Source: a virus
Virus record (IMG/VR): IMGVR_UViG_3300033552_000035
Coordinates: 1 to 35,332 of that record
Reading direction: 5' to 3' (one strand)
DNA: 35,332 nt
Part shown: in pieces, positions 13,879-35,332 of the stretch
How the letters are laid out: the number at the start of each line of letters is the position of its first letter
How positions within the stretch are numbered: the first letter of the stretch is position 1
Program-made: the position numbers and the translations under genes
Notes under the pieces: generated by a model
Databases searched by the model: none
What the model saw: the letters and a program-made list of their open reading frames with translations, nothing else
Told to the model about the DNA's origin: nothing

Positions 13879-14130
13879 TTATGTTTCGGGATTAGTGATT
13901 TCTATTTCTCTTAATTTTATTGATTGACTACCAATTATAAATTCTGTTCTTGCCCTATGGATTTCTATCTCTAAAGACTTTTGCATTTTACTAGCAATAT
14001 TTACAAGCCTATCTGCTTTCTCTAAAGGTATTTCATCATTTAATACTGATGCAAATAAAGCTGATAATGAATGATAAAGTGCTTTATTATTTGGTGGTGC
14101 TAATTGTTTTTTGCTTTCTTGATTTTCCAT
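13879..14130 (-). CDS. hypothetical helical protein, 83 aa
   Basis: Starts 44 bases inside the end of the zinc-finger gene. The product is mainly helical: SLSALFASVLNDEIPLEKADRL then IASKMQKSLEIEIHRA. Short proteins of this shape occur in phage early and accessory regions, but no function can be read. The operon order suggests it is made with the zinc-finger protein and the HTH protein. Confidence 0.55.
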   Translation of the reverse strand: MENQESKKQLAPPNNKALYHSLSALFASVLNDEIPLEKADRLVNIASKMQKSLEIEIHRARTEFIIGSQSIKLREIEITNPET

Positions 14131-14581
14131 GTTCTTTTTTAATTCTTTTAATTAATAATACGTTTCTTTTTAAATCTATTAACTCTCTATTTATTTGGTT
14201 TTTATAAAAACCATCACATTTTAACTTCTCTATAATGTATTTATCAGTAAGATTTTTAATTGCTTTTTTACTGTTAATTTTAACAGCTTTTTTTATTTTA
14301 TTTAGATTTTCTAAATAATATTTTTTATTGTAAGAATTTTGATATTCTGGATTTTCTGTAAAAAAATTTTTACTCCATTTTGTATATCTATCTTTATTAT
14401 ACTTGTAATGATTTTTTTGCAAATCTTTGTATTTAAGATTATTTTCTAATCTCCACTTCTCTGATACTAGGTTCTTGCATTTTTTACATCTTGAATCTAT
14501 ACCGTGTTTATAACCCTTAGATTTATAAAAATCAGAATAATGCTTTATTTCTAAACACTTACTACAAACCTTAGATTCCAT
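14087..14581 (-). CDS. zinc-finger, HNH-like (homing endonuclease type) protein lacking a clear HNH core
   Basis: A 164-residue, very Lys/Asn/Tyr-rich protein. The N-terminus CSKCLEIKHYSDFYKSKGYK followed by CKKCKNL is the four-cysteine zinc-binding module common at the start of phage HNH and homing-type endonucleases. The repeated KYNKDRYTKW / YNKKYYLENL middle is typical as well. No His-Asn-His catalytic core is visible, so the protein may be a degenerate or divergent nuclease, or only DNA-binding. It is the first gene of its operon and its ATG lies 6 bases after the T run of the structured leader at 14587-14673. Confidence 0.6.
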   Translation of the reverse strand: MESKVCSKCLEIKHYSDFYKSKGYKHGIDSRCKKCKNLVSEKWRLENNLKYKDLQKNHYKYNKDRYTKWSKNFFTENPEYQNSYNKKYYLENLNKIKKAVKINSKKAIKNLTDKYIIEKLKCDGFYKNQINRELIDLKRNVLLIKRIKKEHGKSRKQKTISTTK

Positions 14582-14586
14582 AAAAC

Positions 14587-14673
14587 AAAAAATCCTTAGT
14601 CGAGGTCAGAACTGGCATTCATCACCCGAATAAGGATTCTTTAAGTTTCTTTTTAGATGTGCCAGCATCATTT
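14587..14673 (-). ncRNA. structured leader or small RNA, copy 2
   Basis: Predicted RNA of about 85 nt read on the minus strand. The 5' part has GCTGGCA (complement of 14660-14666). Stem AATCCTTA (complement of 14631-14638) pairs with TAAGGATT (complement of 14591-14598), followed by a run of T. The loop holds TGCCAG, complementary to the 5' CTGGCA, so a pseudoknot or switch is possible. Just after it comes TCTGACC, as in the plus-strand copy at 34358. It ends right before the ATG of the zinc-finger gene, so it may control that gene by attenuation or be a separate RNA. Confidence 0.5.
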
Positions 14674-14690
14674 ACAATTCAAATGTAAAT
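14670..14690 (-). promoter_or_regulatory. minus-strand -7 box inside an inverted repeat
   Basis: TACATTTG on the minus strand (14680-14687) fits TAnnTTTG. It lies in an inverted repeat with arms ATTTACA (14670-14676) and TGTAAAT (14684-14690) separated by 7 bases, a good shape for a repressor operator covering the promoter. Transcription would start near 14673 and run through the structured leader into the minus operon. Confidence 0.5.
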
Positions 14691-33468: not shown

Positions 33469-33495
33469 TTTCCCACATTTAAATAACTTTGATTA
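33469..33495 (+). promoter_or_regulatory. repeated intergenic element, copy e
   Basis: TTTCCCACATTTAAATAAC followed by TTTGATTA, two bases before the ATG at 33498. One of the two best-matched pairs of the family. With copy f at 34261 it flanks the PP-loop gene in direct orientation. Confidence 0.6.
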
Positions 33496-33497
33496 GA

Positions 33498-34259
33498 ATG
33501 AAAAGATTTATAAGTTTTTCGGGAGGTGTTGAATCAACTACTATGTGTTTATTATATGGTAAAGGAGCGAATGCAATTTGGTGTGATACAGGAGCAGAAC
33601 ATGATTTAATGTATCAAAGAATTGATTTGGTAGAAGAAAAACTAAAGGAAATACATAAAGGAGATTTTAATTTAATTAGGGTTAAAAATGAAAAACATAT
33701 TGGTTTAGAAGATTACGCTATAAAATCAAAATATATGCCTTCTGGTCAATCGAGATATTGCACACGACTTTTTAAAATTGAGCCTATTGATAGCTATTTA
33801 GGAAAACAAGGAGATTGCGAGTTAATGATTGGGTTCAATGCTGATGAAGAAGGTAGAACTGGAAATTTAGAACTAAAGTCAAATGTTAATTATACCTATC
33901 CGTTAATTGAAAACGGATTAACAAGAGATGATTGCGAAGATATTTTAAGGATTAACGGATTGCATCCAGAGCTACCAGTTTATATGTTAAGAGGTGGGTG
34001 TAGAATGTGTTTTTATAAATCAGAAAAAGAATATAAAGCATTGTTTCACTTGAATAAAAATGAATTTTTAGAAGTATTGAATTTTGAAAATAACATACAA
34101 GATCAAAGAATGAAGTTTTATTCAATTATGGGAAATGGTAAATCATTAAATCAATTAATGAAAGAGTGTGAAAGTGAGAAAATGTTATTTCCAGAAATCG
34201 AAAGCCTTTATAAATCACTTAAAAAAGAAACATCATGCGGTGCTTTCTGTCATAGGTAA
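33498..34259 (+). CDS. PP-loop ATPase / PAPS reductase-like protein
   Basis: A 253-residue protein; the ATG at 33498 is chosen over a TTG at 33489 that lies in the repeated element. The PP-loop FSFSGGVEST form (SFSGGVESTT, residues 6-15) differs from the usual SGGxDS by Glu for Asp. DTGAEHDLMYQRID and RYCTRLFKIEPID are family features. GGCRMCFYK and CGAFC are two cysteine pairs, as in PAPS reductase-like enzymes of phages and the DndC/QueC-type enzymes. The fold activates a substrate with ATP, and the cysteines may bind metal. Gene context (direct repeats at both ends, no operon partner) suggests a movable cargo gene. Its substrate is unknown. Confidence 0.7.
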   Translation: MKRFISFSGGVESTTMCLLYGKGANAIWCDTGAEHDLMYQRIDLVEEKLKEIHKGDFNLIRVKNEKHIGLEDYAIKSKYMPSGQSRYCTRLFKIEPIDSYLGKQGDCELMIGFNADEEGRTGNLELKSNVNYTYPLIENGLTRDDCEDILRINGLHPELPVYMLRGGCRMCFYKSEKEYKALFHLNKNEFLEVLNFENNIQDQRMKFYSIMGNGKSLNQLMKECESEKMLFPEIESLYKSLKKETSCGAFCHR

Positions 34260-34320: not shown

Positions 34321-34352
34321 TTCCCTAATATGAATAACTTTACTTATATTTA
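34321..34352 (+). promoter_or_regulatory. repeated intergenic element, copy h, with -7 box TATATTTA
   Basis: TTCCCTAATATGAATAAC, then TTTACT, then TATATTTA at 34345-34352. CCC precedes the -7 box by 19 bases. Transcription would start near 34358, at the beginning of the structured RNA. Confidence 0.6.
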
Positions 34353-34357
34353 AAGCG

Positions 34358-34440
34358 CCGAGTAGTAGCGGTTTCAAAACACTTTAATTAATCTCGACTG
34401 GGAGGAGCACTACTACCTCTGACCAGATCGGGATTTTTAT
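34358..34440 (+). ncRNA. candidate small RNA or leader, copy 1
   Basis: Between promoter element h and element g. The 5' end carries GTAGTAG (34362-34368). The hairpin stem is ATCTCGA (34391-34397), CTGG and GAGG, paired with CCTC (34416-34419), CCAG and TCGGGAT (34428-34434), with a T run after it. CTACTAC in the loop (34410-34416) can pair with the 5' GTAGTAG, giving a pseudoknot or a switch. TCTGACC follows the loop, as in the minus-strand copy. Because a new promoter element starts at 34441, right behind the T run, this may be an independent RNA of about 83 nt. Confidence 0.55.
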
Positions 34441-34469: not shown

Positions 34470-35332
34470 ATGATAAATTTAAGACCTTATCAATCAGAAT
34501 CTATTGCTATTCTTAGAAATGGTTTCAGAAACGGAGAAAAACGGCAAGTTTTATGCCTACCTACTGGAGCCGGAAAGACTGTTGTTTTTTCTGAAATGGC
34601 AAGAATGGCAGCCGAAAAAGGAACGGTTACAATGGTTTTAACTGATAGAACTGAATTATTTAAACAAACCTTAAAATCTATTAATAATGTTGGTGTTGCA
34701 GTAGAAGAAATTTCAAGGTGGAAAAAAGACATCTATTTAAACGCTACCATTTACCTTGCAATGGTTGAAACTATTAAAAGAAGACCCCAATTAACTAGTT
34801 TCTTACGCCCATCATTAATTATTTTAGATGAAGCGCACAAAGGAAACTTTAACCGTATTCTTGACCTTTTTCCTGATGCTAAAGTTATTGGTGCAACAGC
34901 CACTCCAGAAGGAAAGCACTTCTTTAAATATTATCAATCAATAGTTCAAAACATAGACATTCCTGATTTAGTTGAACAGGGTTTTTTATGTGATTGCAAA
35001 GCTTATCAGATGCAGGATGATTTTTCAGATTTAGAAGTTAAAGCTGGTGAATACACGGATGCAAGCCTGTTAACGCACTTTGATAAACCTAAGCTTTATG
35101 ATGGAGTTATAGAGGAATGGCGAAAACATGCTAGTGGATTAAAGACTATTGTTTTTTGCGTAAACATAAAACATACTATTGCGACATACTATGCTTTTAT
35201 TGACTCTGGTATTTCAGCCGAATACATTACAAGCGACACTCCAACAATAGAAAGAGAAAAGATATTAGCAGCATTCAAAGCTGGTTCCTTTCAGGTTATT
35301 GTAAATTGTGGAATACTTACAACAGGTTATGA
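34470..35332 (+). CDS. SF2 DEAD/DEAH-type helicase, N-terminal part (cut by window end)
   Basis: First 287 codons of the helicase that continues, in frame, at position 256 of the window, giving 478 codons in total. MINLRPYQSESIAILRNGF is the Q-motif-like start. PTGAGKT (residues 31-37) is Walker A, LDEAH (119-123) is motif II, and GATAT (141-145) is motif III. The reading frame stays open through the duplicated 257 bases. It is probably the first gene of the replication operon, with the primase-helicase behind it. Phage SF2 helicases of this size act in replication restart or recombination. Confidence 0.92.
   Translation, partial: MINLRPYQSESIAILRNGFRNGEKRQVLCLPTGAGKTVVFSEMARMAAEKGTVTMVLTDRTELFKQTLKSINNVGVAVEEISRWKKDIYLNATIYLAMVETIKRRPQLTSFLRPSLIILDEAHKGNFNRILDLFPDAKVIGATATPEGKHFFKYYQSIVQNIDIPDLVEQGFLCDCKAYQMQDDFSDLEVKAGEYTDASLLTHFDKPKLYDGVIEEWRKHASGLKTIVFCVNIKHTIATYYAFIDSGISAEYITSDTPTIEREKILAAFKAGSFQVIVNCGILTTGY
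35076..35332. repeat. terminal direct repeat, copy B (imperfect)
   Basis: Second copy of the terminal repeat, 96 percent identical to positions 1-257. The final 127 bases match exactly, which is a common largest k-mer length of de Bruijn assemblers, so the exact part may be assembly overlap. Removing one copy leaves about 35,075 bp and joins the helicase gene in frame. Confidence 0.93.

Follow-up and report, generated by a model that had tools for sequence, protein, structure and literature searches.

In P4 immunity, premature termination in a replication-operon leader gives rise to a short RNA, CI. The putRNA of phage HK022 is found at the early promoters, in two copies per genome, and is described as an RNA of ∼70 nt with two hairpins, non-canonical pairs and an RNA triplex (PMC9378689). 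In the pT181-type antisense attenuators, formation of a leader hairpin followed by a T-run hinges on a loop–loop contact, and many orthogonal loop specificities are possible (PMC4878617, PMC3753616). A further structured RNA motif, Flavo-1 (RF01705), belongs to the Flavobacteriaceae, and its matches in a Flavobacterium chromosome are located on either strand of transcripts (PMC9723704).

The element reported here is a kissing-loop RNA of ∼80 nt, found twice in the window, which denotes the whole 35 332-nt stretch of virus DNA that was analysed (IMG/VR record IMGVR_UViG_3300033552_000035). It resembles the P4 CI RNA in being a short leader RNA of replication genes with a potential for premature termination; unlike P4, several of the phages that carry it, FCV-1 and FCL-2 among them, are presumably lytic. 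We know of no antisense gene for this leader. The pT181-type attenuators, which it resembles in leader hairpin, T-run and diversity of loops, are plasmid-borne and kiss in trans (PMC4878617, PMC3753616), whereas in the phage element the partner is the neighbouring hairpin of its own RNA. The combination that defines HK022 put, two consecutive hairpins of ∼70 nt directly behind an early promoter, was also found, ‘early’ being judged here from the downstream genes. A kissing loop and a terminator are, unlike in the phage element, not described for putL and putR in the available portion of the source (PMC9378689).

The earlier note on this DNA had allowed for membership in Flavo-1, and this was not borne out. 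There was no match at the gathering score in Rfam 15 among 15 member loci; at relaxed thresholds (cmscan, E ≤ 5 for the window and E ≤ 10 for nine member loci) nothing overlapped either window copy or the elements of the nine loci, and Flavo-1 was not listed. Searches of a library of open-access papers brought up no such element. We class the kissing-loop leader as a new family among RNAs of the attenuator-leader type. Three other identities were rejected: a kink turn of the box C/D type, suggested by TGATGA ... CTGA of the minus copy, where the internal loop is symmetric, lacks a 3-nt bulge and is absent in the locus L003; HDV-like, twister and other ribozyme topologies, for which neither a matching core nor an Rfam match was found; and a conserved leader peptide, the minus-copy RNA containing a 21-codon ORF but L002 and L005 containing none. 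A sub-threshold match to the histone 3′ UTR stem-loop at 14192–14238 (+; E 0.011, 24 bits against a threshold of 34) lies inside a coding region of the opposite strand and is probably due to chance.

Structure of the two copies in the window

The window encodes an integrase, a VapE primase, a RecT-like protein, a terminase and a portal protein and probably derives from a temperate, Bacteroidota-type phage. Both copies were recovered with the sequence and pairings given in the earlier note, the start of the plus copy moving by one base from 34358 to 34357. The plus-strand leader RNA (34357..34438) opens with HP1 (34358..34371), which in the MFE fold has the stem CCG/CGG and the loop AGTAGTAG, with GTAGTAG (34362–34368) as the kissing strand. 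The A/U-rich linker TTTCAAAACACTTTAATT (34372..34389) leads to HP2 (34390..34435), made up of AATCTCGA+CTGG / CCAG+TCGGGATT and GGAG/CTCT. Here AATCTCGA (34390–34397) is paired with TCGGGATT (34428–34435), a tandem G.A is formed by 34402–34403 with 34421–34422, and CTACTAC in the HP2 loop (34410–34416) is complementary to GTAGTAG in HP1. A terminator-like T-run (34434..34438) follows. The minus-strand leader RNA (14587..14675) has the same build, with HP1 (14656..14669; GATG/CATC, loop CTGGCA) and HP2 (14591..14638; AATCCTTA / TAAGGATT, TCGGG/CTCGA, tandem G.A, GAA/TTC), in which AATCCTTA (14638–14631) is paired with TAAGGATT (14598–14591) and TGCCAG in the loop (14617–14612) is complementary to CTGGCA (14665–14660); its T-run (14587..14592) ends 5 nt ahead of an ATG. 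The general plan is therefore that of HP1 with a short stem and a loop of 6–8 nt, an A/U-rich linker, HP2 with a long stem and an apical loop, and a T-run, the two loops being complementary over 6–7 nt. MFE folds consist of HP1 and HP2 only, and the kissing contact is the sole candidate switch.

These structures alter part of the original description. Both copies had been placed directly behind a −7 box; the plus copy lies right behind TATATTTA (34345..34352, +; 7/8 match to TAnnTTTG), and the minus copy shortly behind TACATTTG (14680..14687, −), a box assigned from its sequence. The T-run ascribed to the end of both is present. A 5′ block complementary to the hairpin loop had been correctly recognised, but it forms the loop of a small hairpin of its own (stems CCG/CGG; GATG/CATC), and the RNA has two hairpins with kissing loops rather than one long stem. 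Of the suggested pseudoknot or switch the loop interaction stands, while the simple pseudoknot gives way to the kissing pair. TCTGACC is no conserved free loop and forms the 3′ side of a short stem and the tandem G.A (GAG/TGA, TGAT/TGAC).

Folded singly, the copies were more stable than their shuffles (z −3.3 and −4.4). The minus copy reached a kissing-loop scan score of 66.0 against a maximum of 64.5 across 60 window shuffles, and the plus-copy score of 59.1 was attained ∼0.1 times per shuffled window. Chance matches thus reach the score of the plus copy and the case depends on homologues, which were regarded as decisive. A search of GenBank phages for close DNA relatives of the two window loci returned none.

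A family of leader RNAs with compensated changes

Phage loci fetched via protein searches, together with cultured phages, were scanned with a descriptor consisting of the HP1 stem, complementary loops, the HP2 stem and the T-run; the −7 box and the ORF were not part of it. This descriptor superseded a simple pseudoknot filter that had proved too noisy. The best score in 2.1 Mb of shuffled window was 64.5, and several dozen matches exceeded it in 1.3 Mb of real loci. The structure search of ∼2.5 Mb of Bacteroidota-type phage DNA gave ∼49 distinct members, among which 47 different kissing sequences occur; FCV-1, FCL-2, snusmum and hattifnatt, all cultured Flavobacterium phages, are among the carriers. 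Many phages have two members, the loops of which are not alike. Of 51 non-redundant candidates listed with a T-run and an ORF, L207:5597 is a chance match and L155:15209 is doubtful; pattern matches in L056 and L059 were rejected as chance matches in coding sequence, and the 17 kb scanned of a Parabacteroides phage contained no element. The median energy of loop pairing was −9.4 kcal/mol for cognate compared with −1.4 kcal/mol for non-cognate loops. Linkers are 81% A+T, with AAA in 43 of 50, and the linker and the tandem G.A region are the better conserved parts, the tandem G.A being absent from L003 and L073. A stacked-rod model, in which the linker lengthens with the helix, gave a negative correlation (Spearman −0.31), from which no conclusion is drawn as P2 trimming partly shifts bases.

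Helicase homologues in viral contigs offered a view of the same position. L002, L003 and L006 have an element of different sequence 5′ of the gene, and in L005 and L008 a small gene intervenes between RNA and helicase. In a set of 52 non-redundant regions lying 5′ of genes of one helicase family and chosen without regard to structure, the element was present in 10, none of which was equalled by any of its 100 shuffles; the other 42 regions did not pass the strict descriptor, and some of these (L073, L082, L088 and L137) contain looser versions by eye.

The scan itself requires complementary loops, so that covariation is best supported by homologues whose discovery or alignment did not depend on it. 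BLAST relatives in Flavobacterium phage records numbered 79 for the FCV-1 element, 65 for the second FCV-1 element, 46 for the snusmum element and 34 for the snusmum endonuclease leader. The hattifnatt and snusmum RNAs are ∼93% alike, and their loops, GTGAGACG/CGTCTCAC and GTGGAACG/CGTTCCAC, differ by two exactly compensated kissing pairs. L179 and L183 are closely related to the window phage; their main HP2 stems are identical in every letter, and the loops CTACTAC/GTAGTAG and CCATCAC/GTGATGG differ by three compensated kissing pairs. Between L233 and L234, the HP1 stem, the kissing helix and HP2 each contain a single compensated pair. Among five sequences of the plus-copy type 95% of cells pair and both sides have changed in 14 of 25 pairs, a count that none of 500 shuffles and no slid register came near. 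In FCOV-S2, which came from a BLAST search, 7 of 8 loop pairs are retained. FCL-2 and FCV-1 have the upstream gene and the promoter in common and wholly different element sequences of equal architecture. The proposal that the helices of the two window copies differ in sequence yet still pair, as in a structured RNA family, is upheld by the ∼49 members and by these changes in sister phages; the further copies with compensating changes that had been suggested as a check were found among Bacteroidota-type phages. These data show that the kissing-loop RNA of Bacteroidota phages is a real RNA family and, by position, a cis leader.

Sister-phage similarity ends at the leader-RNA borders in L150 (35780–36020) compared with L156, and past the T-run in L148 compared with L149; either the element was exchanged behind one promoter, or the gene was exchanged soon after the element. 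The sequences look as if promoter–leader units may serve as recombination joints.

Promoters, T-runs and downstream genes

The Flavobacterium promoter box TAnnTTTG sits at −12 to −5 (PMC9723704), and transcription is therefore predicted to start at 34357 and 14675, at or a few bases 5′ of the foot of HP1. A strict TAnnTTTG was located within 24 nt 5′ of 28 of the 41 non-redundant hits scoring at least 64, compared with 1 of 84 weak hits; the spacing from box to HP1 was mostly 3–6 nt. From the 3′ end of the members to the ATG there are 5–50 nt, mostly 9–28, and an ATG-started ORF begins within 30 nt past the HP2 stem in 38 of 43 members, compared with 14 of 84 ordinary terminators in the same phages. 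An ATG this close behind HP2 leaves little room for a promoter, so transcription of the gene must pass through the element. The term ‘small RNA’ was thus half right; the element is a leader before an ATG, from which a short RNA may possibly be released too.

A terminator-like stem and U-tract were found between promoter and start codon. TTTT was still present at the end of HP2 in 36 of 44 cases when the T-run was omitted from the selection. By the published U-tract score, 49 of 50 members lie above the customary cut-off for terminators, compared with 34% of random sites, a comparison in which the selection of members partly favours T after HP2; after HP1 only 13 of 50 sites exceed it.

Downstream of the plus copy is a DEAD/ResIII helicase gene (34470..35332, +; Pfam PF04851, 1.3e-22) with its ATG at 34470, which continues past the edge of the window. 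Behind the minus copy, 5 nt from its last stem, the ATG at 14581 begins a gene for an endonuclease VII/HNH-like protein of 164 aa (14087..14581, −; PHROG 2340, 1.1e-10; PHROG 1035, 1.1e-08); a Pfam search with it gave no match and a scan of viral contigs yielded no relatives. Immediately 5′ of the plus copy is a gene with a PAPS-reductase domain (33489–34259), and the annotation of phage FCV-1 likewise includes a phosphoadenosine phosphosulfate reductase gene.

Across the family, the downstream genes encode DEAD helicases, DnaB, VapE and DUF3987 primases, a cytosine methylase, a phage replication-type HTH protein, small unknown proteins, and NUMOD4/HNH, HNH_3, T5orf172 and endonuclease VII-like endonucleases. 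Genes of homing-type endonucleases, whose expression often has to be tightly controlled, lie behind a good share of the elements (L101:11808, L134:6026, L148:13662, L150:40365, L139:5126, L183:3881 and window 14669). In hattifnatt and snusmum the RNA is kept, and the sequence diverges soon past the T-run and leads into unlike genes; the RNA therefore functions with more than one gene.

Other arrangements were observed upstream of helicases. In many homologues of the same helicase (L010–L055, e.g. L013, L026, L030 and L034) iteron-like repeats stand in place of the RNA, ∼220 nt 5′ of the helicase ATG, in a fixed layout flanking an AT-rich stretch; the units vary by phage (TGTAGTAGG, GTTACACCCG, CCTTATCA, GTAACAG, GGAACAG) and change in concert within a phage. 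L009 (1306–1400) has a longer H-type pseudoknot before the helicase, CCGAAGATC/GATCTTCGG, with a 12-bp second stem and no evident HP1 stem, in a phage with a sigma70-like promoter; it may be a remote variant that belongs to a different group of hosts. L155 (OP947161), deposited as a ‘Rhodobacteraceae phage’, encodes a helicase 81% identical to that of the Bacteroidota-type L057 and has a possible element 5′ of a NUMOD4 gene; its host label may be wrong.

Proposed attenuation and competing readings

A hairpin resembling an intrinsic terminator between promoter and ATG implies attenuation, or else a terminator that polymerase routinely reads through. The element is most likely a cis-acting 5′ leader RNA that functions as a transcription attenuator, to which we assign a probability of about 0.5. 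Transcription would begin at the foot of HP1, which would form first and display its 7-nt loop; synthesis would then proceed through the linker, the 5′ arm of HP2, the loop strand, the 3′ arm and the T-run. As the loop strand emerges before the closing strand of HP2, kissing would be possible before or during HP2 closure, and the meeting of HP1 with the loop strand before closure may be the natural control point. HP2 and the T-run are predicted to act as an intrinsic terminator, with which the kissing loop would compete or cooperate; joint formation of the two structures would set the efficiency of termination, and with it, in a direction that may be either, the share of polymerases reaching the gene. 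Early and DNA-metabolism genes could thereby be held at a low or tunable level, possibly with a phage or host factor acting on the element. Against attenuation, no alternative antiterminator fold was visible and the stability of HP2 is very high in almost every member, and the short or displaced T-runs of some (GGGTTTTGTC, GGGGCTTAACTTTTT) would terminate weakly. The exchange of genes behind a nearly unchanged RNA argues against gene-specific feedback.

The start of HP1 at the predicted transcription start and the rather fixed distance from HP2 to the ATG (9–28 nt) would also suit a 5′ protector or translation element of the mRNA, a compact fold by which nucleases would be kept off and the U-rich stretch ahead of the ATG left accessible to ribosomes. 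This is unlikely; it leaves the GC-rich stem base with its immediate T-run unexplained, and related helicase genes that lack the element have A-rich leaders.

By analogy with HK022, the nascent two-hairpin RNA might bind RNA polymerase, so that pauses and terminators, including its own T-run, are ignored. The size of ∼80 nt, the two hairpins, the tandem G.A, the position directly at promoters and the frequent occurrence of two per phage all recall putRNA in the available portion of its description, in which no terminator is mentioned (PMC9378689), whereas the T-run is nearly universal here. The loops and stems are moreover all variable, with no conserved nucleotides fit for a fixed polymerase contact, and such an antiterminator seems distinctly improbable.

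The kissing sequences are extremely diverse and mutually orthogonal, those of two-member phages differ, and sister phages differ in specificity. An analogous system acting in trans could account for this, in which the terminated ∼80-nt RNA would be released and would kiss nascent leaders that share its specificity, with self-limitation, or immunity to related phages, as the outcome. However, the two loops of each RNA can pair with one another in cis, FCV-1 and FCL-2 are taken to be lytic, and equal diversity arises by neutral compensatory drift, which makes a trans-acting RNA highly doubtful. The weakest reading, a riboswitch aptamer or a leader binding a phage or host protein, is very improbable, for the better conserved linker and tandem G.A region are countered by the lack of an invariant core (L003 and L073 do without the tandem G.A) and of a metabolic theme common to the downstream genes.

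At long odds, the element may be a portable, sequence-diversified RNA module in which released leader RNAs and leaders recognise each other through kissing loops; each promoter and each phage would then have an RNA ‘address’, by which early genes would be self-limited and phages of the same address excluded. As for the attenuator reading, the ∼47 natural loop–loop pairs tied to a terminator-like hairpin represent a ready set of orthogonal attenuator parts. Bacteroidota are among the most abundant bacterial phyla of freshwater and, to our knowledge, almost nothing is known of gene regulation in their phages. The family constitutes a common, unannotated structured RNA 5′ of replication, recombination and mobile-endonuclease genes, and its carriers include cultured, sequenced phages, so that its function is directly testable.
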